Of a DNA stretch of 64,000 nt, positions 2,691-19,650 are shown in pieces. This DNA is from Hyphomicrobiaceae bacterium (GTDB lineage: Bacteria; Pseudomonadota; Alphaproteobacteria; Rhizobiales; Hyphomicrobiaceae), in contig JANXWC010000148.1 in assembly GCA_025351355.1 (NCBI GenBank), positions 1 to 64,000 on the forward strand. The letters run 5' to 3'. Position numbers and translations under genes: made by a program. Every line of letters begins with the position of its first letter. The stretch's first letter is position 1. A model generated the notes under the pieces. The model saw nothing but the letters and a program-made list of their open reading frames with translations. It did no database searches and was not told the DNA's origin.

Positions 2691-4751
2691 TCACGCCGCC
2701 CGCGCCTGCCCCGCCGCCAGTTTCACGATCTCCGCCATGATGGCGTTGAGATCGAAATCTTTCGGCGTGAACACCGCCGCCACGCCAGCAGCCTTCAGCA
2801 ACGCCGCATCTTCAGGCGGAATGATGCCGCCGACGACAACTGGAATGTCGCCAATACCATCGCGGCGCATCAACTCCAGCACATCCCGCACCAGCGACAC
2901 ATGGCTGCCCGACAGGATCGACAATCCCACCACGTGCACCGCCTCATCCACGGCCGCCCGCGCGATCTGCGCCGGCGTCAGCCGGATGCCTTCATAGACC
3001 ACATCCATGCCGCAATCGCGCGCGCGCACCGCGATCTGTTCGGCGCCGTTCGAATGCCCATCCAGTCCCGGTTTGCCGACCAGGAATTTCACCCGCCGCC
3101 CCAGCGTCGCCGAGGCCGCTTCGACCGCGCGGCGCAGGCCCGCGATCTGATCATTGGCCTTGCCTGAGCCCGCAGCTGTCGACCCGCCACCGACGCCCGT
3201 CGGCGCGCGATATTCACCGAACACGGCCCGTAACGCCGCGCTCCATTCACCGGTTGTGACGCCCGCCGTCGCGCATGCAATCGACGCCGGCATGACATTG
3301 GCGCCGTCTTTTGCCGCAGCCGTCAGTTCAGCCATCGCCTTGGCGACCGCCTTCCCGTCACGCTCCGCACGCCACGCCTTCAGCCGCCCGATCTGCTCGG
3401 CCTCGACCGCGGGATCGACCACTTCGATCGCACTCGCGCCACCGGCCAATGGCGACACCGCCGTCTCGGTGAACCGGTTGACTCCGATCACCACCTGCTC
3501 GCCGCTCTCAATCCTTTTTAGTCGCGCCGAATTGCTTTCGACCAGCCGCCGCTTCATGTAGTCGATGGCCGCCACTGCCCCGCCCATGCGATCGATGTTG
3601 GCCAGTTCAGCCCGCGCCTCGTCCTTCAGGCTCTCGACCTTGCGTGCGATCTCCGGCGAGCCATCGAAAATATCGCCGTATTCGAGCAGATCCGTCTCGT
3701 ACGCCAGCACCTGCTGCATGCGCAGCGACCATTGCTGATCCCACGGCCGCGGCAAGCCCAGCGCCTCGTTCCACGCCGGCAACTGCACCGCTCGCGCCCG
3801 TGCCCGCTTCGACAGCGTCACCGCCAGCATCTCCAGTAGAATGCGCGAGACGTTGTTTTCGGGCTGGCTTTCCGTCAACCCCAGCGAATTGACCTGCACG
3901 CCGTAGCGAAACAGCAGGTGCTTCGGATCGGTGACGCCATAGCGCGTGCGGCCGATTTCTTCCCACAGTTCCGTGAACGCGCGCATCTTGCAGATTTCGG
4001 TGATGAACCGCAGTCCGGCGTTCACGAAAAACGAAATGCGCCCAAAAATAACGGCGAAGTCGGCGTCCTTGATCTCACCCGATTGCTTGACCGTGTCGAG
4101 CACGGCAATGGCCGTCGCCAATGCATAAGCCAATTCCTGCACCGGCGTCGCGCCGGCTTCCTGCAGATGATACGAGCACACGTTGGTCGGATTCCAGCGT
4201 GGCAACTCCTGCCCCGAGAACACGATGGTGTCCTTGATCAGCCGCAACGACGGCGCCGGCGGGAAAATGTAGGTGCCGCGCGACAAATATTCCTTGATGA
4301 TGTCGTTTTGAATGGTGCCCGTGAGATTGCCGCGATCCGCACCCGTCGCGTCAGCGGTCGCCACATACAGCGCCAGCAGCCATCCAGCCGTCGCGTTGAT
4401 CGTCATCGACGTGTTCATGCGGTCGAGTGGAATACCGGCCAGCAGCGTCCGCATATCGCCGAGATGCGAGACGGGCACGCCGACCTTGCCGACTTCGCCG
4501 CGCGCCAACTCGTGGTCGCTATCATAACCCGTCTGCGTCGGCAGATCGAACGCGATCGACAACCCCGTCTGCCCTTTGGCCAGGTTGCCGAGATACAGTG
4601 CGTTGGATTTGGTTGCCGTCGAATGCCCTGCATAGGTCCGGAACAGCCAGGGAGCATCCGGGCCCGCAGTGGTTTTTTGCGTGCCGGCACCCTTACCCGC
4701 CGAACCGCTTTGGCCCGCCGAACCGCCTTTGCCCGCTTTGCCGTGTCCCAT
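2691..4751 (-). CDS. ecm: ethylmalonyl-CoA mutase (MeaA-like, B12-dependent)
   Basis: The 686-residue single-chain acyl-CoA mutase should convert (2R)-ethylmalonyl-CoA to methylsuccinyl-CoA in the ethylmalonyl-CoA pathway. The catalytic barrel carries YAGHSTA, FDLPTQTGYDSDH, GTIQNDIIKEYLSRGTYIFPP and NPTNVCSYHLQEAGAT, the pattern remembered for MeaA. The cobalamin domain (about residue 550 onward) has the base-off motif DGHSNG followed by SILSGSH and GGIIPP. Residues 5-25 are an unusual Gly/Lys/Ser/Ala-rich extension. Crotonyl-CoA carboxylase/reductase lies 765 bases upstream on the opposite strand, which supports ethylmalonyl- rather than methylmalonyl-CoA mutase. The main alternative is a methylmalonyl-CoA mutase paralogue. 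Confidence 0.88.
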   Translation of the reverse strand: MGHGKAGKGGSAGQSGSAGKGAGTQKTTAGPDAPWLFRTYAGHSTATKSNALYLGNLAKGQTGLSIAFDLPTQTGYDSDHELARGEVGKVGVPVSHLGDMRTLLAGIPLDRMNTSMTINATAGWLLALYVATADATGADRGNLTGTIQNDIIKEYLSRGTYIFPPAPSLRLIKDTIVFSGQELPRWNPTNVCSYHLQEAGATPVQELAYALATAIAVLDTVKQSGEIKDADFAVIFGRISFFVNAGLRFITEICKMRAFTELWEEIGRTRYGVTDPKHLLFRYGVQVNSLGLTESQPENNVSRILLEMLAVTLSKRARARAVQLPAWNEALGLPRPWDQQWSLRMQQVLAYETDLLEYGDIFDGSPEIARKVESLKDEARAELANIDRMGGAVAAIDYMKRRLVESNSARLKRIESGEQVVIGVNRFTETAVSPLAGGASAIEVVDPAVEAEQIGRLKAWRAERDGKAVAKAMAELTAAAKDGANVMPASIACATAGVTTGEWSAALRAVFGEYRAPTGVGGGSTAAGSGKANDQIAGLRRAVEAASATLGRRVKFLVGKPGLDGHSNGAEQIAVRARDCGMDVVYEGIRLTPAQIARAAVDEAVHVVGLSILSGSHVSLVRDVLELMRRDGIGDIPVVVGGIIPPEDAALLKAAGVAAVFTPKDFDLNAIMAEIVKLAAGQARAA

Positions 4752-5515: not shown

Positions 5516-6817
5516 ATGGCGCAATCAGCATCGACCAAGGTCGCAAAATCCCCCGAAGCGACGGCGAAAGACCTCTACGAAATTGGCGAAATTCCACCGA
5601 TGGGTCATGTGCCCAAGAACATGTACGCCTGGACCATCCGCGCCGAGCGGCACGGCGATCCGGACAAGGCCATGCAGGTCGAGGTCATTCCCACCTGGGA
5701 ATTGGACAGCCACGATGTCCTCGTTCTCGTGATGGCCGCCGGCGTCAACTACAACGGCGTCTGGGCGGCGCTTGGCACGCCCATCTCCCCCATCACGGAT
5801 GTGCATAAAAACCCTTACCACGTTGCCGGATCGGACGCGGCGGGCATCGTCTGGAAGGTGGGTTCCAAGGTCAAGCGCTGGAAGGTCGGCGACGAGGTCG
5901 TCATCCACTGCAACCAGGACGACGGCGACGACGAGGAATGCAACGGCGGCGACCCCATGTTCTCGCCCAGCCAGCGCATCTGGGGTTATGAGACGCCGGA
6001 CGGTTCGTTTGCTCAGTTCGCCCGCGTGCAGGATCGCCAGTTGCTCGAACGCCCCAAGCATCTGACGTGGGAAGAAAGCGCCTGCTACACGCTGGTGCTG
6101 GCAACCGCGTACCGCATGCTGTTCGGCCATCGCCCGCATGTGCTCCGCCCCGGCCATAACGTGCTCGTCTGGGGCGCCTCGGGAGGCCTCGGCTCGATGG
6201 CCACTCAGCTCATCGCCACGTCGGGTGCCAACGCCATTGGCGTCGTCTCCGAAGACGACAAGCGCGACTTCGTGATGCAGTTGGGCGCCAAGGGTGTCAT
6301 CAACCGCAAGAAATTCAACTGCTGGGGCCAGATGCCCGTCGTCAACACGCCCGAGTATGCGGCATGGATGAAAGAGACGCGCAAATTCGGCGGCGCCATC
6401 TGGGAAATCACCGGCAAGGGCAACAACGTCGACTTCGTGTTTGAGCATCCCGGCGCCAGCACGTTTCCCGTGTCGGTGCTGATCGTCAAGCGCGGCGGCA
6501 TGGTCGTCATTTGCGCCGGCACCACCGGCTATAACCTGACCATGGATGCCCGTTATCTCTGGATGCATCAGAAGCGCGTGCAGGGCAGCCATTTCGCCAA
6601 CTACCTGCAGGCCTCGCAGGCCAACAAGCTCGTCGTCGAACGGCGCATCGAGCCGTGCATGAGCGAAGTCTACACCTGGGACGAGATCCCCAAGGCCCAC
6701 ATGCGCATGCTCAAGAACGAGCACAAGCCCGGCAACATGGCCGTGCTCGTATCCGCTCCCCGCACCGGCCTGCGCACCTACGAAGACGTGCTCGAAGCCA
6801 GCGCCGCGAAGCGGTGA
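5516..6817 (+). CDS. ccr: crotonyl-CoA carboxylase/reductase
   Basis: The 433-residue medium-chain reductase carries out NADPH-dependent reductive carboxylation of crotonyl-CoA to ethylmalonyl-CoA, the signature step of the ethylmalonyl-CoA pathway. Visible family features are VMAAGVNYNGVWAALG, HVAGSDAAGIVW, the acidic DDGDDEECNGGDPMF loop, WGYETPDGSFAQF, the nucleotide motif WGASGGLGSMA and the GSHFANY motif that carries the CO2-orienting histidine in characterised Ccr enzymes. ATG 5516 is chosen over 5492 because GGAG at 5505-5508 sits 7 bases ahead. It is divergent from the Ecm gene, and the 193 bases between 5322 and 5516 should hold its promoter. Confidence 0.95.
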   Translation: MAQSASTKVAKSPEATAKDLYEIGEIPPMGHVPKNMYAWTIRAERHGDPDKAMQVEVIPTWELDSHDVLVLVMAAGVNYNGVWAALGTPISPITDVHKNPYHVAGSDAAGIVWKVGSKVKRWKVGDEVVIHCNQDDGDDEECNGGDPMFSPSQRIWGYETPDGSFAQFARVQDRQLLERPKHLTWEESACYTLVLATAYRMLFGHRPHVLRPGHNVLVWGASGGLGSMATQLIATSGANAIGVVSEDDKRDFVMQLGAKGVINRKKFNCWGQMPVVNTPEYAAWMKETRKFGGAIWEITGKGNNVDFVFEHPGASTFPVSVLIVKRGGMVVICAGTTGYNLTMDARYLWMHQKRVQGSHFANYLQASQANKLVVERRIEPCMSEVYTWDEIPKAHMRMLKNEHKPGNMAVLVSAPRTGLRTYEDVLEASAAKR

Positions 6818-6910
6818 TCTAAAAGCGTAGAAGCACACCCATCGGGAACAGTATAAATCGGTAGGCCGGAGTCGTGACTTTTGCGCTGTGTTGAACTCAT
6901 TTTCGGCAAT

Positions 6911-7010
6911 AGGTTGGGTCAACCCCGGACACTTGATCCGGGGGCGACCCAACAACCGCGGGCTCAATTTCGGCTTCTGTTGGGTCGCGCCAAACGGCTT
7001 GACCCAACCT
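6911..7010. repeat. 100-bp nested palindromic element with GTTGGGTC arms
   Basis: The outer arms AGGTTGGGTC (6911-6920) and GACCCAACCT (7001-7010) enclose two further copies of the same words: GACCCAAC at 6946-6953 and GTTGGGTC at 6979-6986. The left half folds with an inner CCCCGGA/TCCGGGG stem (6923-6929 and 6937-6943). The right half is a shorter stem with a 14-base loop. The element lies between ccr and the phosphoesterase gene and overlaps the likely start of the latter. Confidence 0.75.
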
Positions 7011-7888
7011 ACAGGCTATCTCTCGTTGCTCTGGCCCTCAACATCACCTGGCTTGGTGTGTGCTCACCGACGTTGGCTGCTGACACGGTGGCGCTCGTCC
7101 CCGCCTATGACCACATCGTCGTCGTCGTGATGGAAAACCGCGACTACAACGACATCATCGGCAATAAGGCGGAGGCGCCCTACGTCAACGAACTCGCCGC
7201 CAAAGGCGCGCTGCTGACCAACTACATCGCCGTCGCCCACCCCAGTCTGCCGAACTACTATGCGCTTTACGCCGGTCGCACCTTCAGCGTTTTCGATGAC
7301 GAAGATTACATTCTGCATGCGCCGACCTTGGCAACCATCCTCAAGAAGGCCGGTAAGTCCTTTGCCGGATATGTCGAGCATCCCAATGCGACGGACAGCC
7401 ATCAGCCCTGGGTGTCATTTCAAGAAGGCGACGACGTCGAGCGCGACTTCAATACATTTCCGGTGGGAAAATTCGACAGCCTGCCGACCGTTTCTTTCGT
7501 CATCCCCAACGTCGACAACGACATGCACGACGGCACCATCGCGCAGGGCGACGCGTGGCTGAAAACCAATATCGATCCCTACGCCAAATGGGCCAAGGAC
7601 AATAACTCGCTGCTGATCCTGCTGTGGGACGAAACGGACGACGGCGACGTCAATCACGTACCGGTGATTTTCTACGGCGCCCACGTCAAACCCGGAAAAA
7701 ACGCCACGCTGACCAACAACTATAATGTGCTCAGCACAATTCTCGCCGCCTACAAGCAGGTGGCGCCCGGCCATGCCGCCACCGCGGCTATCATCGATGT
7801 CTTCGGCCGTCGCGGTGCCCCGTTTAAGCGGCCCAAACTTCCCCCCGTACGTGGCCCGCTGACACCACACGTCGTCAGCATTGATTGA
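6980..7888 (+). CDS. exported phosphoesterase (acid phosphatase/phospholipase C superfamily)
   Basis: The mature part resembles the PF04185 phosphoesterase family: VVVVMENRDYNDIIG with the metal/nucleophile region, HPSLPNYYALYAG, PNVDNDMHDGTI and LLWDETDDGDVNHVPVIFYG. Such enzymes are exported metal-dependent phosphatases or phospholipases. No in-frame ATG precedes the domain. The best signal peptide (MGRAKRLD, a hydrophobic stretch, then SPTLAA) begins at TTG 6980, inside the palindromic element at 6911-7010 and without a ribosome binding site. A longer TTG start at 6881 would also read through the element. The repeat may therefore have replaced the native 5' end, and expression is doubtful. 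Confidence 0.75.
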   Translation: MGRAKRLDPTYRLSLVALALNITWLGVCSPTLAADTVALVPAYDHIVVVVMENRDYNDIIGNKAEAPYVNELAAKGALLTNYIAVAHPSLPNYYALYAGRTFSVFDDEDYILHAPTLATILKKAGKSFAGYVEHPNATDSHQPWVSFQEGDDVERDFNTFPVGKFDSLPTVSFVIPNVDNDMHDGTIAQGDAWLKTNIDPYAKWAKDNNSLLILLWDETDDGDVNHVPVIFYGAHVKPGKNATLTNNYNVLSTILAAYKQVAPGHAATAAIIDVFGRRGAPFKRPKLPPVRGPLTPHVVSID

Positions 7889-7944
7889 TCGCGCACGCAT
7901 CGAGCAGCAGTTATTGTGTCGCAACCTTCGGTCTTTTTTACAAA

Positions 7945-7973
7945 TCGTCATGGCCACGCAGGTGGCCATCCAC
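7945..7973. repeat. short palindromic repeat, copy of the TCGTCATGGCC family
   Basis: TCGTCATGGCC-ACGCAGG-TGGCCATCC has GGCCA/TGGCC arms around CGCAGG. The same word, with GC instead of AT closing pairs, occurs twice around 53078-53225. It lies in the 192-base gap between two convergent exported-protein genes. Nothing else coding is seen in that gap. Confidence 0.55.
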
Positions 7974-8080
7974 GACAAGCCGCAACGCGCGCCAATAAAA
8001 CGAGCAATTATCGAAGCGGCTCAAAGTTCAAACCATAAGCGGTTTTCCCGAAATGAAACACGACAAGCAAAAGATAAGCA

Positions 8081-9163
8081 TCATTTCGCCAGATAGTTGC
8101 GATGCACCCACGCACCATCGGCCTTACGGGCTTCGACGTACAGCGACTTCTCGTTGTCGCGCAACTCCTGCCGCGCCAACGCGCCGATTGGTTTTTCCTC
8201 GCTTTTGCCGGCTTCCGCCTGTGCGAGGAACGCGGCGACATCGCCGGTCGAGGGCACCGCAGAAGCCGTGCTTTTACCGGCTTCACCTATGGCTTCCGTT
8301 GCACTTGCCGCCAGCAATTTCGACCACATTTTTTTGAACAGTCCGTTGGACGGATACTGGTCGGCACTGTTGATGCGCCCGTTGACGGCGAAGACGTAGC
8401 CGATGATGTCGCCGTCGACGGCCTTGTCCTCAAGTCCCGCAATATAGGCTGCACGCGTGGCTTTGACTTTGTCGTTTTCCAAGCTGAGTTGCAGGCTAGA
8501 CGTCGATTGCGCGGCAGCAACCGGCGCGCCCAACCTCTCGCTCAATTTATTCTGGACGCCGGCGACGGCTGCCCACATTTCAGCTTGTCGCGTACTCGTC
8601 TCGTCGCGGACGATTGGTGAGGTCCGCCGCATGGTAGATGTCGTCGCGCTGGCGTCGGGATAGGCGACCGCTGGCTTCGGCGGAGCCTTCATGGCGAGCT
8701 TCGCCTCGCGCGAGGGTAGGCCTTCCGCAGCGCTTGCAAACTGCCTGACGTCTTCGACACCGCGCCTCGACCAGCGCCCCTGCTCGACGCAGAAACTGCC
8801 GATCGACACCACCCCTGATTTACCGGGCAGGATCATGCTGACCATCAGCACACGGTCCTGTTGCCCGCCTTTGACGATATCACCGGCCTGGATGAAGACG
8901 TCAGCGTCACCGGTATTTTCGATTTCAAGATTATTGACGCTGCCGGTTTCGCGCAGTTTGACGGTGCCTTTGGCCAGCGCTTCGACAAGCGTCAAAGGTA
9001 CCGGGCCACCGGCGCTTTGACCGTGAATGAAGTAGACGGCCAAGTTGTCGTGCAGATAGGGGCCGGAGAGTTTGGGTTGCGCGAGGGAGCGCGCGGGTTG
9101 GGCCGAACCGAGCCCGAAAGCTGCGGCTGAAACGGCCATGGCGGCAAGCGTGAAAAAGCGCAT
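8081..9163 (-). CDS. exported DUF6569 (ARPP-1-like) family protein
   Basis: The 360 residues start with a clear signal peptide (MRFFTLAAMAVSAAAFGLGSAQPARS). The first half carries a conserved block I associate with DUF6569/ARPP-1 proteins: YFIHG, TLVEALAKGTVKLRETGSVN, DVFIQAGDIVKGGQQDRVL and IGSFCVEQGRWSRRG. No biochemical function is known to me. ATG 9163 is chosen over a TTG 27 bases upstream because it opens exactly at the signal peptide. The gene is divergent from the malonyl-CoA synthetase gene and has no obvious metabolic link to it. Confidence 0.75.
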   Translation of the reverse strand: MRFFTLAAMAVSAAAFGLGSAQPARSLAQPKLSGPYLHDNLAVYFIHGQSAGGPVPLTLVEALAKGTVKLRETGSVNNLEIENTGDADVFIQAGDIVKGGQQDRVLMVSMILPGKSGVVSIGSFCVEQGRWSRRGVEDVRQFASAAEGLPSREAKLAMKAPPKPAVAYPDASATTSTMRRTSPIVRDETSTRQAEMWAAVAGVQNKLSERLGAPVAAAQSTSSLQLSLENDKVKATRAAYIAGLEDKAVDGDIIGYVFAVNGRINSADQYPSNGLFKKMWSKLLAASATEAIGEAGKSTASAVPSTGDVAAFLAQAEAGKSEEKPIGALARQELRDNEKSLYVEARKADGAWVHRNYLAK

Positions 9164-11134: not shown

Positions 11135-11476
11135 ATGGCTCTCGATCAGTTCGGCAATTCGACCTCCTATCTCAATGGACTGAATTTCGATCCACGACGC
11201 GATATTTCGCAAGGCGGCGACCGCGACAACGGCTATGACAATCACCGCGAACTGCCGGACGATTCAATGGAGCGCATTCGCGACTTGATTCTGGGCGATC
11301 TGCGCCGCGGCTGGGACGCCCGCCTGCAGACGCTCGAAACTCGGTTACAGATGCTCGAAGACAAGGTCGACGCTCTTCGTCATGAGACTGCCGACGCCCG
11401 CCGGGAGCATCTGTCAGCGCTCGCCGAAGGCATCAATGAATTGGGCCAGCACGTTCGTCGCCTGGGCCGTCCCTGA
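11135..11476 (+). CDS. small coiled-coil protein heading the GTPase module
   Basis: The 113 residues show no signal peptide or membrane helix. The first 40 are Asn/Asp/Gly-rich and look disordered. Residues about 45-110 have strong heptad character (DLILGDLRRGWDARLQTLE, then LQMLEDKVDALRHE), predicting a coiled coil. ATG 11135 is preferred to GTG 11126 because AGGTG at 11124-11128 is correctly spaced. The family is not recognised. It precedes the OmpA-domain, GTPase, kinase and receiver genes on the same strand with a gap of 82 bases, so it may be a scaffold or partner of that module. Confidence 0.7.
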   Translation: MALDQFGNSTSYLNGLNFDPRRDISQGGDRDNGYDNHRELPDDSMERIRDLILGDLRRGWDARLQTLETRLQMLEDKVDALRHETADARREHLSALAEGINELGQHVRRLGRP

Positions 11477-11558
11477 TCACATCTACATTAGACTTACCAG
11501 CCGCGAGGGCAACGGCTTTGATCGCTCCAGAAGTGCCTGCGCCTGAGGTACCACGTCG

Positions 11559-13754
11559 ATGACCAGTCCGCCGACGCCGCAGGGCGTCAATCTGCTCAAG
11601 GAATTGCTGTTCGACCGCGAAGCGCGCCGTTTGGACGAATTGAGCCGCAGGATCGACGCGGAATCAACCTCCGCCGCCGACCGCGCAAAAGCGCTGGCCG
11701 ACCGCATCGACATCGTGTTCGAACGGGCAGGCACCGAAGAGCGTCTGCTGCACAGCGTGTCATTGATCATCGATGGTGCGTTGCGTGAAGCGGAAGTGAC
11801 GCGGCATGAGCCGTTGAGCAAGGCCATTGCGCCGCTGATCGTGCAGACCATCAAGACCCAATTGCGCGACAGCCAGGATGAGATGGTCGACGCGCTGTAT
11901 CCCATCACCGGCCGGCTGGTGAAAAGTTACGTTCAGGCCGAAATCAACAAACGCATGATCGAGATCAACGCGCGGCTTGGCGGCGGGCGACCGGCGTTGG
12001 ATGCCAAAAGTGCTGCAACCGGTGTTCCCGTCGGTGACCTCGCGCTGGCCGAGGCAAACCGCTTGGAGGTCGAGGAGGTGTTCCTGGTCCGCCGCGGCTC
12101 CGGCGAAATGTTAGCCCACTGGGAAAAACCAGAGCCGGATATTTCGGTGCCGGCGGCGCAGCGTCCCGGCGGCTCCAACCGCGATGTTCTCATCTCCGGA
12201 TACATCAGCGGAATCATGTCGTTTTCCGAAGAGGCATTCGGCGCCAATCCCGGCAGTTTCCGCACTTTGGAACTGGAAAATGGTGAACGGATTTTCGTGC
12301 GGGGATCACCGGCCCATCTCCTCGCCGTGCGGTGCCGCGGCAATGCAGGGGCCTCAGCCGAACAGGTCATCGACGAAGTCTTCCTTGATACCTTGGAGCG
12401 CTACCAACAGATACTTTCGGCAGACAGTGCGATGCGCCGTGCAGACGGATCAGGCAGCACGGCAGTCGAAACCCAGAACCAGACGCGGCAAGAAATTGCC
12501 GCTATCCTGCCCGCTCTCAGCAAGTCCATTGAGAAGCAAACCGCTGAGCGCCAGACCTCCCTCGCCGTGCAGAGTGCCGCGCCGCCAGCGGCAGGTTTCG
12601 CGCGCCTGTATGCCTTGGCGGCCTTGGTGGTGACGCCCTTTCTGATATGGGGCGGGTGGTCGGCGTATATGAGCTTTCAAACGCTGCGCACCGAGAGCGC
12701 GGCCAATCGTGTTCTTGAAACAGTGGATGAAGTCCGCGGCATACCGCCCAAAATAGAGGTGGAGCGTGGCGGCCGCGCGCTGACGATCACTGGCTTTGTA
12801 CCGACCATCAGGCTGCGCGATCAAATTCTATCGCGCCTCGGCCAGGAGGTGCCGCAGGCAAACGTGCGCAATCATCTCGCGGTATTGCCGCCAGGTAGCG
12901 CGGAGTTGGAAGCTACATTGGCCGAATTGCGTCGCGACGCCGAGCGGCAACGTGTCGAAGCCTCGGCCGCCACGGTCACGCGTACGCTGGCGCGCATCCG
13001 CCAACGGCTGCAACCGGCTCAGGCGATGATCGTGCAGGTACAGAACCGCACACAGCGACCATCAGCTACCCTTGTCGACCTCGGTAAGTCGCTCGAAGTC
13101 GCGATTGAGAAAGCCGCAGCGGTCGGCGCCGATGCACAAAACCAACTCGAAGCGCTTTGGCTGGCGCTCACGCAGGCCGAGGCGCAATTAGCTGCTGTGA
13201 TGGGTGTGCAGTCGCCAGCAATCTCGCGCGCTGACGCTCGTCCGGTTGGGCGGCTTGAACTGGCCGAAGATTGCAGTCTGATGGCGGAACGTATCGGTGC
13301 GGTAGCGCTCGGCCTCGCACTTCCCACCGAGGTCACGACACTGGCGGCCAAAATCGATCGCTTCCGCCTGCCGACAGCACGCGACGAGTTGGAGAAGTTC
13401 GTTCGCACCACCGCTATCTTCTTCGACAACGGTGCCGACGTGCGCGACGCAAATTCAACTGCAGCGACGCTTGATCAGTTGGCGCGCCAGCTCCGCGACA
13501 ATCCCGACATCGTATTGCGCGTGGTTGGCTACACCGACGAGCGTGGAGGCCAAGCCATCAACACCAACCTTGCCCAGATGCGGGCCGACCGGGTAGCAGC
13601 ACTGCTCATCGACCGCGGGGTTGCGAGCGGTCGTCTCATTGCCGTCGGACGCCTCGCAGGCAAGGACCTGACGCGCACTTCCGGAACCGGCAGCGCCAAC
13701 CGCCGCGTGGAATTCGAACTGGGCTTTTCGGGCGAGACCAACGGAGCGCCATAA
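11559..13754 (+). CDS. membrane protein with cytoplasmic Roadblock/longin-like region, BON-like and C-terminal OmpA domains
   Basis: 731 residues. 1-340 lack a signal peptide and should be cytoplasmic. Within them, about 171-285 run VEEVFLVRRGSGEMLAHW, helix, RTLELENGERIFVRG, HLLAVRC, an order of elements like the Roadblock/longin sensors that pair with small GTPases (inference). One membrane helix is at 348-368. About 384-443 resembles a BON domain, 450-550 is coiled-coil rich, and 616-722 is an OmpA/MotB peptidoglycan-binding domain (FFDNGADV, GYTDERGG, LAQMRADRVAALL, NRRVEF). The Ras-like GTPase gene starts 2 bases after its stop, so the two are surely co-translated. It is best read as an envelope-anchored receptor or regulator for that GTPase. 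Confidence 0.82.
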   Translation: MTSPPTPQGVNLLKELLFDREARRLDELSRRIDAESTSAADRAKALADRIDIVFERAGTEERLLHSVSLIIDGALREAEVTRHEPLSKAIAPLIVQTIKTQLRDSQDEMVDALYPITGRLVKSYVQAEINKRMIEINARLGGGRPALDAKSAATGVPVGDLALAEANRLEVEEVFLVRRGSGEMLAHWEKPEPDISVPAAQRPGGSNRDVLISGYISGIMSFSEEAFGANPGSFRTLELENGERIFVRGSPAHLLAVRCRGNAGASAEQVIDEVFLDTLERYQQILSADSAMRRADGSGSTAVETQNQTRQEIAAILPALSKSIEKQTAERQTSLAVQSAAPPAAGFARLYALAALVVTPFLIWGGWSAYMSFQTLRTESAANRVLETVDEVRGIPPKIEVERGGRALTITGFVPTIRLRDQILSRLGQEVPQANVRNHLAVLPPGSAELEATLAELRRDAERQRVEASAATVTRTLARIRQRLQPAQAMIVQVQNRTQRPSATLVDLGKSLEVAIEKAAAVGADAQNQLEALWLALTQAEAQLAAVMGVQSPAISRADARPVGRLELAEDCSLMAERIGAVALGLALPTEVTTLAAKIDRFRLPTARDELEKFVRTTAIFFDNGADVRDANSTAATLDQLARQLRDNPDIVLRVVGYTDERGGQAINTNLAQMRADRVAALLIDRGVASGRLIAVGRLAGKDLTRTSGTGSANRRVEFELGFSGETNGAP

Positions 13755-13756
13755 CC

Positions 13757-14269
13757 ATGCGCAAAAAACTGGTGCTGCTCGGTGAAATGGCTGTCGGCAA
13801 GACGTCGATCGTCCGTCGCCTCGTGCACGATCGGTTCGAGGGCAATTACAAAGGCACGTTGGGCCACGATATCTACGCCTACACATTGCCCGGCCTGGGT
13901 CCGCAGCAAGATCAAAGCCTCGAGCTTGTGATCTGGGATACGGACGGCGGGCTCGGCATGAGCGCGTTCCATATCGACGCCGCCGTCAAAGGCGCCAGTG
14001 CTGTCATCATCGTCGCCGACGTTACTCGCCCTCGGACGCTCACGACCATGTCATCGCTGTCCCGAGAGTGCGACAGTCACTTGCCGGGACGACCTGCTTT
14101 TTTGGTCTTCAACAAAGTCGACGTGCTCGGTCCGACTGCGGAATTCACCGTTCCCACCGATCTGGCGGCCTCCGGCAACGACTTTTTAAAAACCAGCGCC
14201 AAATCGGGCGAGAACATCAAAGAAGCCTTCATTCATGTCGCCAATGCCATCCTCCGCCGTGGCCTGTGA
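13757..14269 (+). CDS. Ras/Rab-like small GTPase
   Basis: The 170 residues are a stand-alone G domain with all five boxes: G1 GEMAVGKTS (9-17), G2 Thr34 in GTLGHD, G3 WDTDGG (60-65), G4 NKVD (119-122) and G5 TSAK (146-149). It is closer to eukaryotic-type Ras/Rab proteins than to TrmE/Era GTPases and is probably of the prokaryotic Rup/MglA-like group. No lipidation motif or membrane helix is seen. Where Ras has Ala59 and Gln61, this protein has Asp63 and Gly65, so slow intrinsic hydrolysis and dependence on a partner are predicted. It is packed between the OmpA-domain gene and the histidine kinase gene, which overlaps its end. Confidence 0.9.
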   Translation: MRKKLVLLGEMAVGKTSIVRRLVHDRFEGNYKGTLGHDIYAYTLPGLGPQQDQSLELVIWDTDGGLGMSAFHIDAAVKGASAVIIVADVTRPRTLTTMSSLSRECDSHLPGRPAFLVFNKVDVLGPTAEFTVPTDLAASGNDFLKTSAKSGENIKEAFIHVANAILRRGL

Positions 14270-15434
14270 GGCCGGCGATATATCCGGCCCGGAGCTTCCG
14301 GATCCGCTGATCGACGCCGCGTTGACTTTGGCCGAACAGGACGCGGTGGGCGTCATATGGTTGGCGCCGGATTTGACAGTGCTGAGCACGGCCGGGAACC
14401 TTCCGGCCGGGTTGATCATCGGTTCGCCCGTGTCGAAAGGGCTCATTCCATTGATCGGCTTGGATGCCGAGCTCCTTGCGCTCAAGTCTCAAGTGGTGCC
14501 CGACCCGATCCGATTGGCGAATATCGCCGTCATGACGCACGATGAAACAAAGTCGCAGCGCTTCAATATTATCATTTTTTGGAACCGGCAGCGCGGGCGT
14601 TTCCTCGTTTTATTGAGTAAAATTTTCAAGCAGAGCACGCCTACTGCCGAACTCGATCAGGAGATCCGGCGCCGACGTCTGATCGAACAGGATCTTGCGG
14701 CAAAGTCCGTTGAGTATGCGCGTATCAATGAGCAACTGGAGGAATTTGCCTACGTCATCAGCCACGATCTCAATACGCCGCTACGCGCGCTCCGCTATCT
14801 GAGCGGCGACATTCAAAACGCGCTTTCTGACCGCGACCTCCCAGTAGATGCAGCGGCTCTATCTGAGGCAGCCGAAGCCATCGCGGTGCAGACCCGCCGC
14901 ATGTCCAAGATGCTGGCAGATCTGCTCGACTATTCGCGTATCGGTCGCGTGCACGAAGCCATCGAGTGCGTTTCCACGCGTGCCCTGATTACTGAGATTG
15001 TCACCAGTCTTCGGCCGACCACGAAGCTGGAGCTGCTGCTTGCCGGTGATTGGCCGGTTTTCAACACCGCGGTCGTGCCGTTGGATCTGGTGTTGCGCAA
15101 CCTCGTCGAAAACGCCGTCAAGCATCATGATCGCGAGAATGGCCGGATCGAAATCAGCGCCGAGACCCGTGGATCTGCTGTCGTTTTTTCCATTACTGAC
15201 GATGGGCGCGGCATTACGCGCGACTGGCAGCAGGCCATCTTCGAACCTTTCCGGAAGATCGACGACGCCCTTCACCCCGAGAGCAGCGGTATCGGCTTGG
15301 CCTTGGTCAAAAAAACGATTGCCGCTATTGGCGGGACGATCGAGGTCCAGTCCGCAGCGCCTGACCGCCGTGGCACCACTTTTATCGTCAAATGGCCTCT
15401 CAAATTAGCAGACAACGACCGATCAAGCCCTTGA
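14235..15434 (+). CDS. soluble sensor histidine kinase of the GTPase module
   Basis: The 399 residues have no membrane segment. The N-terminal part (about 25-135) looks like a PAS-type sensor (VIWLAPDLTVLSTAGN). A coiled coil leads to the H-box AYVISHDLNTPLRAL with His177, a pattern shared with phytochrome-type kinases. The ATPase domain has N-box NLVENAVKHH (about 289-298), G1 DDGRGI, F-box FEPF and G2 SGIGLALVKK. The start overlaps the GTPase gene by 35 bases (or 26 if ATG 14244 is used), showing tight coupling. The phosphoacceptor is probably the receiver-only protein encoded next. Confidence 0.9.
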   Translation: MSPMPSSAVACEAGDISGPELPDPLIDAALTLAEQDAVGVIWLAPDLTVLSTAGNLPAGLIIGSPVSKGLIPLIGLDAELLALKSQVVPDPIRLANIAVMTHDETKSQRFNIIIFWNRQRGRFLVLLSKIFKQSTPTAELDQEIRRRRLIEQDLAAKSVEYARINEQLEEFAYVISHDLNTPLRALRYLSGDIQNALSDRDLPVDAAALSEAAEAIAVQTRRMSKMLADLLDYSRIGRVHEAIECVSTRALITEIVTSLRPTTKLELLLAGDWPVFNTAVVPLDLVLRNLVENAVKHHDRENGRIEISAETRGSAVVFSITDDGRGITRDWQQAIFEPFRKIDDALHPESSGIGLALVKKTIAAIGGTIEVQSAAPDRRGTTFIVKWPLKLADNDRSSP

Positions 15435-15617
15435 TCTTCATCGCATCGTTGACAATGCTGCCTTAAAATAGCGCTGGCGCGCACAACAGAAACTACCCCA
15501 TGATGAAGGTTGCCATGGTTTGGTCGTTTTCCACGCCATGGTAAGCTCTGCACCGGCTCTCAGCAGGGTAAAAAGTTGTTTGAGAAGCTGCAGTGCTCGC
15601 GAGCCGCGGAGGAACTG

Positions 15618-16148
15618 ATGCCGTTAACACCCAAAGGCACAGGCGGTGCTTTTCTTGAGCGCAAAAGCGCCCTCGCCATCGCCCGTCAGGCACGACCCCG
15701 CTTTAACGACATGCTCATCGTAGAGGATACAAATCTCGATGCGGCGCGATTGAAGGCCACGTTGCATTCAATCTTTGGTTACGAGATCATCACGCGTCAC
15801 GCGGCAACGCTAGGAGCCGCCCTCGATCGGGTGATCGAACGACAACCAGACTTGATTTTCCTCGATGACCACCTGAAACCCAGCGACAACGCCGCGCACA
15901 CCATCCCGTTTTTGCGCCGCTGCAACTACAGCGGCCCGATCATCGTCGTCAGCGGCATGCTCGATCGCAAGCGCGCGGCGATCCTGATCAAGGCCGGCGC
16001 CGCCGTTGCCATTCACAAAGACGCCCTGGACAGCGGCAGCATCGCCGAAGCCCTTGCCAAAATCCACGAACAGCCCATCAACGTTCCGGCGGCTGATCCA
16101 GACATTGATGAAAAAACGGCGACTGACGAAACGACCGCAAAATCCTAA
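15618..16148 (+). CDS. receiver-only response regulator
   Basis: The 176 residues form a single CheY-like domain with short tails. The acidic pocket is in MLIVEDTN, the phosphoacceptor is Asp83 in FLDDHL (78-85), the Ser/Thr switch is in IIVVSGM and the conserved lysine is in AIHKDAL. There is no DNA-binding or enzymatic output domain, so it should act by protein contact or as a phosphorelay step. ATG 15618 is fixed by GGAGG at 15608-15612; an open frame extends upstream to 15510 but lacks such support. It follows the kinase gene by 183 bases and is the last gene before the convergent gmk gene. Confidence 0.88.
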   Translation: MPLTPKGTGGAFLERKSALAIARQARPRFNDMLIVEDTNLDAARLKATLHSIFGYEIITRHAATLGAALDRVIERQPDLIFLDDHLKPSDNAAHTIPFLRRCNYSGPIIVVSGMLDRKRAAILIKAGAAVAIHKDALDSGSIAEALAKIHEQPINVPAADPDIDEKTATDETTAKS

Positions 16149-17780: not shown

Positions 17781-17952
17781 TGGACACCATTTCGTGGGCA
17801 GAGGATCGAATCAAACCCATATCTGCCGGATGCGCGTCCAACAAGTCCGGCTTTCTGCCGCCGGCAACCAACGGCACGATCAACCCTTGTCCGTGGTTCG
17901 GCCCCCCGCTAACGCTTCATCGAACAGTCCGCATCCAATCTCCGGAATCCTC

Positions 17953-18891
17953 ATGCGCATCGAATATCATCGTACCCTGTTGTCCGACCGGGTGCGCAAT
18001 CAGGCTTTTCATGATGCCTTGCAACGGGTGATCGTGCCGGGGAAGACCAAGGTCGTCGACATCGGCTGCGGTACCGGCTTTTTGGGTTTCTTGGCCGCCA
18101 AACTCGGCGCCAAGCGCGTCGTGCTCATCGAAACCGCTGAAATCTCTTCCCTGGCCAAGCGCCTGATGAAAGCCAATGGCTTCCGCAATATCGAAGTGGT
18201 GCCGGCGCATTCGACCGAACTGGAGCCACCCGAGCGTTTCGATGTGGCGGTATCCGAGACGCTCGGCAATTACGCCTTCGAGGAGAACCTCATCGAAACC
18301 CTCGGCGACGCGCGTGACCGCTACCTCGAACCGGGCGGTGTGCTAATCCCCGGCAAAGTGCGTCAGTATCTCTGCCCGGTCATCAACCCTGCTCTGCACA
18401 AGCATCTCGCCGCCTGGGACGACGTCGGTTACGGCCTCAACTTCGACGCCGCCAAGGAGATGGGCCTCAACAATATTTATGTACGCTGGCTCACGCCAAC
18501 TGATCTGTTGGATGAAGGCCGCGCCGTGCAGCAATGGGATGCCGTCGATCTCGCTAAGCCGACCAAAACCACGCGCACCGGGCAGGCCGCCTGGGAGCCC
18601 AAGGCCAAGACCCACATTTCCGGCCTCGCCATCTGGTGGGCCGCCGACCTCATCGAGGGCATCACGTTGGGCACCGGGCCCACCGATCCCCGCACGCATT
18701 GGGAGCAACTGTATCTGCCAGCGGCCGAGCCCTTCGATGTCGTCCGCGGTGAAACGCTGACCGCCCGCCTGCGCTCCACCACGTCATACGGCGAAGGCAC
18801 CAATGTCACCTGGACGCTGACGGTGTCCGACACCAAGGGTCGCGAACGCTTGAAGCAGACGATGGATTTGAAAAAGGGATTTTTGCCGTAG
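17953..18891 (+). CDS. PRMT-like class I SAM-dependent methyltransferase
   Basis: 312 residues from ATG 17953; the open frame extends to 17770 but the extra part is not protein-like. Motif I VVDIGCGTGFLGFLAAKLGAKRV and the acidic IETAE bind SAM. SETLGNYAFEENLIE looks like the two-glutamate loop of protein arginine methyltransferases, and THWEQLYLP matches the THW loop. A C-terminal beta-rich half completes the PRMT layout. The substrate is unknown: an arginine in a protein is the natural guess, but bacterial members are little studied. It stands alone between yicC and vapBC. Confidence 0.78.
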   Translation: MRIEYHRTLLSDRVRNQAFHDALQRVIVPGKTKVVDIGCGTGFLGFLAAKLGAKRVVLIETAEISSLAKRLMKANGFRNIEVVPAHSTELEPPERFDVAVSETLGNYAFEENLIETLGDARDRYLEPGGVLIPGKVRQYLCPVINPALHKHLAAWDDVGYGLNFDAAKEMGLNNIYVRWLTPTDLLDEGRAVQQWDAVDLAKPTKTTRTGQAAWEPKAKTHISGLAIWWAADLIEGITLGTGPTDPRTHWEQLYLPAAEPFDVVRGETLTARLRSTTSYGEGTNVTWTLTVSDTKGRERLKQTMDLKKGFLP

Positions 18892-18939
18892 ACGCGGGGG
18901 TGCCGGGCTTGACGGTGCTTAAAACAGGCGGCCGGATTT

Positions 18940-18957
18940 GGTATATACCATTGGTAT
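18940..18957. promoter_or_regulatory. probable VapBC operator: GGTATATACC palindrome plus half site
   Basis: A perfect 10-bp palindrome, GGTATATACC (18940-18949), is followed by TTGGTATC, repeating the GGTAT half site. It lies 30 bases upstream of the vapB start codon, where VapB antitoxins usually bind to repress their own operon. The AT-rich palindrome could also overlap a -10 element. Binding is inferred from position and symmetry only. Confidence 0.5.
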
Positions 18958-18979
18958 CTATCAAAATGGAGGCCATGCC

Positions 18980-19243
18980 ATGGCCAGTGGTATCGCCAAG
19001 ATCTTCAAGCACGGTCGCAGCCAAGCCGTCAGATTGCCGAAGGAGTTCCGACTTCCCGGCACGGAGGTCCGCGTCAACCGCGTCGGCAACGGCGTGCTGT
19101 TGGAGCCCGTCGAATTCGACGCCGACGAGTGGCTCAAAGAGTTGGATCGCCTTCGTGCGACGGCCGGTGGATCGTTTTTGCCTGACGGCCGGCCGAAGCA
19201 GCCGCCCATGCCGCCTGTCAACGACGTCGATTTCGACGAATGA
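18980..19243 (+). CDS. vapB: VapB-type antitoxin (AbrB/SpoVT fold)
   Basis: The 87 residues open with a swapped-hairpin AbrB-type DNA-binding domain (AKIFKHGRSQAVRLPKEFRLPGTEVRV), followed by a Pro/Asp-rich tail that would wrap the toxin. GGAGG at 18968-18972 fixes ATG 18980. The stop codon overlaps the start of the toxin gene in ATGA, so translation is coupled. Both promoter repression and toxin neutralisation are expected. Confidence 0.92.
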   Translation: MASGIAKIFKHGRSQAVRLPKEFRLPGTEVRVNRVGNGVLLEPVEFDADEWLKELDRLRATAGGSFLPDGRPKQPPMPPVNDVDFDE

Positions 19244-19650
19244 TCCTGCTGGATACGAACGCAGTGATTCCGATCATCAACGATCGCCCGCTCGCGGTCC
19301 GCATCGTATTCGAGCGGCACCTTGCCGACATCAGGCCGATCGCCGTCAGCTCCATCGTCATCTACGAACTCCGCTATGGCATCGCCAAGAGCAAGTTTCG
19401 GACCCAAAACGAATCGTTACTACGTGCCTTCATCGAAGGGCCGGTAACGTTGCTGCCGCTTGATGATGAGGACGCGTCAACCGCAGGAATGTTACGCGCG
19501 TCACTCGAAAACGCCGGCACAACCATCGGTCCCTATGACCTGCTCATCGCCGGCCAGGCGCTGCGCCACAATGCCACCCTCGTGTCAGCCAACACCCGCG
19601 AGCTCAAGCGCATGAAGGGCCTGCGTATCGAAGATTGGACTAAAGGCTGA
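19240..19650 (+). CDS. vapC: VapC-type PIN-domain ribonuclease toxin
   Basis: The 136 residues match the PIN nuclease fold: Asp5 in MILLDTNAVI, Glu43 in IYELRYG and Asp100 in GPYDLLIAGQA, with VSANTREL near the end. All expected acidic metal ligands are visible, so the toxin should be active as an endoribonuclease of unknown RNA target. The start overlaps vapB by 4 bases. Confidence 0.93.
   Translation: MILLDTNAVIPIINDRPLAVRIVFERHLADIRPIAVSSIVIYELRYGIAKSKFRTQNESLLRAFIEGPVTLLPLDDEDASTAGMLRASLENAGTTIGPYDLLIAGQALRHNATLVSANTRELKRMKGLRIEDWTKG

Follow-up and report, generated by a model that had tools for sequence, protein, structure and literature searches.

A probable kinase-type Group 1 Rup GTPase module with a predicted longin-like receptor domain in a Hyphomicrobiaceae bacterium

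The five-gene locus and its conservation

We analysed 64,000 nucleotides of DNA from a Hyphomicrobiaceae bacterium (assembly GCA_025351355.1, contig JANXWC010000148.1, positions 1 to 64,000 of the forward strand; hereafter the window) and focused on a locus at 11135-16148 in which a Rab-like small GTPase is encoded beside a wall-binding membrane protein. The open reading frame (ORF) list and Pfam searches showed five co-oriented genes, encoding a coiled-coil protein, a membrane receptor composed of an N-terminal domain (N-domain), a transmembrane (TM) span and an OmpA domain, the Rab-like GTPase, a PAS histidine kinase and a receiver. Pfam matches were obtained for OmpA (3.7e-12), Ras (5.6e-23), HATPase_c (6.1e-23), HisKA (7.9e-10) and Response_reg (3.1e-8). 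The stop of the OmpA-protein gene and the GTPase gene are 2 bases apart, and the GTPase and kinase genes overlap by 35 bases. A preliminary description of the locus had listed the same five kinds of genes, the 2-base spacing and the kinase/GTPase overlap, all of which were confirmed. The anatomy fits that of a Group 1 Rup GTPase module, and the locus is probably an alphaproteobacterial, kinase-type version of it. The features are listed below.

11126 (GTG) or 11135 (ATG) to 11476, forward strand: small coiled-coil protein, encoded by the leading gene of the module (ORF list)
11559-13754, forward strand: membrane receptor with cytosolic N-domain, TM span, BON-like region, coiled region and C-terminal OmpA domain
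12060-12446, forward strand: longin/roadblock-like domain in the receptor (residues about 168-296, with helices up to about 339; predicted model)
13452-13703, forward strand: OmpA-like peptidoglycan-binding domain (residues 632-715 per Pfam)
13757-14269, forward strand: Rab/Ras-like small GTPase of Rup type (Pfam Ras; Gly65 in place of Gln61)
14235-15434, forward strand: soluble histidine kinase with PAS domain (residues about 22-131), signalling helix, HisKA and HATPase_c
15618-16148, forward strand: stand-alone receiver (Pfam Response_reg; N-terminal motif TGGxFLxRKS)

The ATG at 11135 is the likelier start of the coiled-coil gene, and the receiver start at about 15618 is supported by aligned orthologs. 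The receptor's single TM span (about residues 346-372) and the kinase's freedom from TM spans were judged by eye from the sequence. A BON-like region follows in the receptor at about residues 380-445; in 6 of 23 receptor orthologs Pfam BON gave a match (E no higher than 1, lowest 5.5e-5), and in the window's own protein it gave none. In OmpA-type folds, one Asp and one Arg bind peptidoglycan, and D660 and R675 of the OmpA domain are invariant in the receptor alignment (A2).

We then examined the spread of the module. Among 60 related genomes, the GTPase was found in 27 and the receptor N-domain in 26; both were present in 26 genomes, neither in 33, and the GTPase alone in one (G019), where the contig (locus L036) begins inside the OmpA protein, with the OmpA C-terminus present and the N-domain cut. 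The GTPase occurred in 5/5 genomes of the genus (own included), 19/31 others of the family and 3/24 others of the order, which makes its distribution patchy. Wider draws gave the N-domain in 10/385 genomes of the class and 49/398 of the phylum (own included in each). From 40 of the 54 further genomes with a match, we selected 40 loci by the N-domain alone. The results showed that the GTPase gene lies downstream of the N-domain gene, on the same strand and within 200 bases, in 39 of them, often with a 4-base overlap; gene overlaps recur across the module loci. The possibility that the arrangement is unique to the window's genome was rejected, as the order was found in relatives and in wider genomes. 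Because the order holds both within the family and outside it, the five-gene arrangement is not a matter of chance, and the earlier proposal was supported insofar as it joins a two-component pair, a Rab-like GTPase and a membrane protein that binds the wall in one conserved module.

The module was also found on plasmids. By annotation, a Mesorhizobium sp. WSM1497 plasmid carries, in order, a hypothetical protein, an OmpA family protein, a 'Rab family GTPase' and a cyclase. Two further plasmid records are unannotated; with our own profiles, we found a coiled coil, N-domain, GTPase and cyclase on a Rhizobium sp. CC1099 plasmid, and a coiled coil, N-domain, GTPase and kinase on a Nostoc sp. UHCC 0926 plasmid, the N-domain of the Nostoc kinase matching the family PAS profile at 1e-4. 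These examples, Nostoc included, show that the module crosses phyla. When plasmids were searched with the full-length receptor, 14 of the 18 rows matched the OmpA end only.

The first and last genes were assessed separately. With a 12-member profile, a coiled-coil ORF was found just upstream of the receptor gene in 59/65 loci, 11 of which are in the profile; no upstream match was found in L038, L042 (cut), L055, L098, L102 and L108. Coiled-coil profiles are unspecific, so the weight rests on the constant gene position. A stand-alone receiver follows the kinase in 22/23 testable family loci (window included) and is absent in L034; L045 is cut by a contig end and was untestable. Residues D37, D83, D84, S112 and K134 of the receiver are invariant in a 22-row alignment (A4), and the motif TGGxFLxRKS (window 15618-15710, forward strand), which precedes the receiver domain, is conserved across the 22 rows. 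Near cyclase outputs, a receiver was seen only in L116 and L132, almost 2.9 kb past the GTPase, and none was found near GGDEF-EAL outputs. Kinase-type modules of the family thus appear to have a dedicated receiver of their own.

The GTPase of the window carries G1 (GEMAVGKT), G2 (Thr34), G3 (WDTDGG), G4 (NKVD) and G5 (TSA). All five G boxes are present, as first described; what that description did not mention is that the G3 glutamine (Gln61 of Ras) is missing, with Gly65 in its place. The G3 motif of Ras is DTAGQ. This glutamine was found in 0 of 64 readable module GTPases and only in a Heimdallarchaeal outgroup, and the G3 Asp, a trait of Rup and not of MglA, is present in every row with a readable G3 (WDTDG in the window). 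The best matches of the GTPase in the Protein Data Bank (PDB) are Rab proteins; MglA chains are absent among the best 60 PDB rows, which proves nothing. A contig search with the GTPase returned four loci, three of them close relatives (61-72% identical) in Hyphomicrobiaceae metagenome-assembled genomes. The fourth (L032:8001-8516) is the Heimdallarchaeal GTPase used as the outgroup, which is 31% identical and keeps the G3 glutamine (WDIAGQ). A second Ras-family match in the window's own genome (C262, 27 bits) falls in a 652-residue frame.

The receptor domain, the output enzymes and the surroundings of the locus

The receptor carries a conserved N-terminal domain of about 300 residues, whose fold, like the PAS domain of the kinase, was not mentioned in the preliminary description. 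The N-domain gave no significant Pfam match; Fuz_longin_1 (0.0018) and Robl_LC7 (0.023) were each reached by one member of 22, not significantly. An AlphaFold model built from 4 sequences showed strands at 170-178 and 184-189, a helix at 207-222, strands at 234-238, 244-249 and 253-260, and two helices. This predicted order, b1-b2-a-b3-b4-b5-a-a, is that of longin/roadblock domains, with moderate confidence in the model and a predicted local distance difference test score (pLDDT) of about 63-81 across the strands and the following helix. The best Foldseek matches were CopZ1, GATOR1/Rag, Ego3, BLOC-3, Ykt6 and MglB, with Ragulator also present. The top VIA match was TRAPP Trs23 (Z 11.6, 121 residues, 2.6 Å), and further matches were a Lokiarchaeal longin (Z 11.0) and VAMP7 (Z 11.0); Mon1-Ccz1 (Z 10.3) and Fuzzy-Inturned (Z 10.1) were level with many other longins. 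Judged by their titles, the 50 VIA matches listed are all chains of longin fold. The N-domain profile reached MON1 (first longin) at a non-significant E of 0.067; a wider profile of 40 members did no better, with MON1 lost and one roadblock protein left at E 0.17. The N-domain therefore likely has a longin/roadblock fold, at moderate confidence, and from this predicted fold we infer a GTPase-regulating role. Roadblock/longin dimers often bind small GTPases, chiefly as exchange factors, longins are also used in SNAREs, and the families are thought to be archaeal in origin (PMC10933270).

Two loci, L098 (225-5108) and L102 (4627-9893), contain paired adjacent N-domain/OmpA receptor paralogs. In L045 (6515-8835, forward strand), the receptor is split over two frames (N-domain 6515-7909, OmpA part 7360-8835), owing to either a frameshift or an assembly error.

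We next considered the gene after the GTPase. A recognised output enzyme lies directly 3' of the GTPase gene in 57/66 module loci (window not counted), comprising 29 kinases (the hybrids L112 and L113 included), 24 class III cyclases and 4 GGDEF-EAL proteins. Pfam matches confirm the assignment of six cyclases, of the GGDEF-EAL proteins in L110 and L121 and of the two hybrids; the remainder were assigned by our own profiles. In L101, a protein with the PAS N-domain and no Pfam kinase match follows the GTPase, and in L055 and L097 the output position is cut by a contig end. In L105 (2679-4121, forward strand), a histidine kinase (HisKA_3) with the module PAS domain adjoins the GTPase gene on the opposite strand, and in the L115 region 2935-4332 a 404-residue frame matches the cyclase profile. 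In the family kinases, H177, N293, D322 and G324 are invariant (22-row alignment A3). In the cyclases, the residues with metal and transition-state roles are invariant in 23/23 proteins of more than 300 residues; the one in L124 is cut.

Residues of about 22-131 of the window kinase were modelled as a PAS domain with a mean pLDDT of 72.7. All 12 Foldseek rows at E <= 0.001 were, judged by their titles, PAS or PAS-containing proteins, and the VIA matches (best Z 11.3) included PAS, LOV and photoactive yellow protein. Pfam PAS models matched none of the 22 family kinases. Comparison with hhalign showed that the kinase N-domains are homologous to the pooled N-domains of the cyclase and other kinase outputs (94.5%, E 8e-8), the other kinase outputs forming the bridge (97.4% and 98.1%). 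The output N-domain is thus predicted to be a PAS domain common to the kinase and cyclase versions.

Output type was also compared with a GTPase tree of 65 rows, drawn from the modules studied here plus a single outgroup. Output type tracks the tree, with 8 changes versus 29.3 in shuffles, and the cyclase-type GTPases lie on one side of one branch of weak support (81/58). Such agreement is expected for cognate GTPase-output pairs, and likewise for plain descent.

Around the locus, no sigma-70-like promoters were found versus 1.3 in shuffles, and 2 terminators versus 6.0; since these counts are not above shuffles, no transcript boundary could be set. No tRNA or Rfam family was found above threshold in the 64-kb window. 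A protein arginine methyltransferase-like gene lies at 17911-18891, forward strand (Pfam PRMT_C 7e-11 and methyltransferase models), and adjoins guanylate kinase and YicC-like genes also in L031 and, cut, in L029. At 18938-19650, forward strand, two small overlapping genes resemble, from the ORF reading, a VapB/VapC toxin-antitoxin pair.

Comparison with known systems

Wuichet and Søgaard-Andersen described Group 1 Rup GTPases in 2014 as lacking the G3 glutamine, as very similar to eukaryotic Rab/Ran/Ras/Rho, and as having three conserved neighbours, namely a coiled coil, a protein of unknown domain–TM–OmpA architecture and an output enzyme, typically a GGDEF/EAL fusion or a histidine kinase (PMC4316618). 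Group 1 Rup likewise crosses phyla, and the output enzymes were reported to have an invariant glutamine in the N-terminal region, from which it was suggested that the G3 glutamine might be provided in trans (PMC4316618). The preliminary description had held that no system of such composition was known, and this did not stand: the four core genes of the locus already appear in that paper's account of Group 1 Rup neighbourhoods. By 2014 no Rup member had been experimentally characterised (PMC4316618). We recognised no later experimental work on Group 1 Rup GTPases in the open PubMed Central literature, and the parts covered of two citing papers (PMC4915359 and PMC13343842) contain no experiment on the system.

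The window's locus shares with Group 1 Rup the G3 Asp, the missing G3 glutamine, the coiled coil, the unknown domain-TM-OmpA protein, the output enzyme and the lack of MglB. It differs in that the window's family has a conserved fifth gene, the stand-alone receiver, and no invariant glutamine in the output N-domain; the unknown domain is now given a predicted fold, and class III cyclase outputs are not mentioned in the main-text parts covered of PMC4316618. What we add is therefore the longin-like fold, the PAS domain shared by outputs, class III cyclases as outputs, a receiver dedicated to the kinase and the exceptions to the glutamine rule, although receivers or cyclases may already be found in the 2014 supplement (table S2).

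Actinobacterial conservons (AGPS; CvnA-D) also carry genes for a small GTPase, a histidine kinase and a partner of the roadblock superfamily, and the Myxococcus polarity system MglA-MglB-RomR likewise combines a small GTPase, a roadblock-fold regulator and a receiver protein. Conservon GTPases, however, belong to the MglA family and have a separate MglB-type protein (PMC4316618), whereas in the window the longin-like domain sits within a wall-anchored receptor, and the locus includes a receiver. The G3 Asp retained by other GTPases is missing from MglA (PMC4316618), whereas the window GTPase has it. A Robl_LC7 (MglB-type) search of the window's genome (G000; 98% complete, 266 contigs) found nothing, with control matches in 3/14 genomes. 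An MglA/MglB or conservon locus was rejected on the G3 motif and this absence of Robl_LC7. A cell-polarity switch, one of the functions first suggested for the locus, found no direct support, the analogy being with MglA, which is of the other prokaryotic small-GTPase family.

The eukaryotic longin Rab exchange factors (Mon1-Ccz1, Fuzzy-Inturned and the TRAPP core) share with the module a longin fold, here predicted, beside a Rab-like GTPase. The system described here differs in being bacterial, with one longin per chain, transmembrane and peptidoglycan-binding.

Proposed order of signalling and alternatives

On balance, we favour a reading of the whole module in which the wall-tied receptor probably switches the GTPase, which in turn controls the output enzyme. 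The OmpA domain would hold the receptor to peptidoglycan, and the single TM helix would relay conditions in the wall or periplasm inward to the longin domain in the cytosol. This domain, probably dimeric and perhaps together with the coiled-coil partner, would bind the GTPase and alter its nucleotide state, either as an exchange factor or as a hydrolysis activator. The GTP form would then switch the output enzyme by binding its PAS domain. In the window, the histidine kinase output would phosphorylate its dedicated receiver; relatives would use this front end to control a hybrid kinase, a GGDEF-EAL protein or a class III nucleotide cyclase. Envelope sensing, which had also been suggested at first, fits the OmpA domain, and beyond that fit it is a function that we infer.

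Several results weigh against this reading. The N-domain model has a mean pLDDT of only 56.6, a moderate confidence, with values of 43-51 over residues 191-230 (the long loop and central helix). The best Foldseek E for this domain was 3.2e-3, with no row at E <= 0.001, and no significant sequence match to any longin/roadblock protein was found; longins that regulate no GTPase (SNAREs and adaptor subunits) appear among its fold matches. The one exception among the 40 loci selected on the N-domain, L102, encodes two N-domain proteins, and no GTPase was found within the 13.5 kb examined there; L054, L106, L107 and L120 show no recognised output enzyme after the GTPase. The direct comparison of kinase and cyclase N-domains failed (hhalign 1.4%), and the GGDEF-EAL N-domains matched neither the kinase nor the cyclase ones (0.1-4%).

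The order of events could also be reversed, with the PAS kinase as the sensor and the kinase and receiver regulating the GTPase-receptor pair as the output, for example in an MglA-like polarity or morphogenesis role that positions or reshapes complexes bound to the wall. In support, the PAS domain of this soluble kinase could sense a ligand; the conservon GTPase was proposed as an output since no response regulator is found there, and MglA works with the receiver protein RomR (PMC4316618). However, the receptor and GTPase stay where the enzyme after the GTPase may be a kinase, a class III cyclase or a GGDEF-EAL protein, which is the pattern expected of a variable output, and the receiver that follows nearly every testable family kinase also argues against the reversed order. 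We consider it unlikely.

Another explanation is that the longin-like domain only recruits the GTPase to wall sites as a docking platform, and that the output PAS domain and helix are the GTPase-activating factor, following the trans-glutamine idea of 2014. The absence of a Gln61 equivalent from all readable module GTPases is consistent with this, as is a glutamine at the start of the post-PAS helix in 24/24 cyclase outputs and 5/5 other kinase-type outputs (L098-L101 and L112). In the 22 family kinases, however, the same column holds Gln in 13, Glu in 7 (window included), Leu in 1 and His in 1. The window kinase has Glu143 in the column and Gln142 beside it, and the column adjoins Arg145 (22/22) and Arg147 (21/22). 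No invariant glutamine was found in the kinase N-domain among 21 (A6) or 22 (A3) family kinases. Since the post-PAS column is not always Gln, the glutamine of 2014, if it is the same one, is not general in that form. The trans-glutamine idea is weakened for the window's kinase family but may still hold for the cyclase outputs, and docking combined with a PAS-helix activator seems an improbable account of the module.

A mere convenience of operon structure, in which a wall-structure protein and GTPase stand beside an unrelated two-component pair, would suit the four loci without a recognised output and the L034 kinase without a receiver, but is very improbable given the output enzyme after the GTPase in most loci, the homology of the kinase and cyclase PAS N-domains and the recurrent gene overlaps.

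Returning to the receptor-first order, we tentatively put forward a stronger form of it, which is possible but doubtful. Group 1 Rup would be a bacterial receptor-G protein-effector cascade. Its transmembrane longin protein, anchored to the wall, would be a genuine exchange factor for the Rab-like GTPase, as the counterpart of the eukaryotic longin Rab exchange factors, and the GTPase would drive exchangeable effectors (kinase, class III cyclase and cyclic-di-GMP enzyme), with a shared PAS domain as the link for the kinase and cyclase at least.

The longin-type partner predicted from the same operon supplies Group 1 Rup GTPases with a concrete candidate regulator. This candidate opens a testable path from the cell wall to a kinase, a cyclic nucleotide or cyclic-di-GMP, and the swapping of outputs behind one front end would allow one GTPase logic to be compared across outputs. 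The predicted longin partner is relevant, too, to how the longin–Rab pairing arose.

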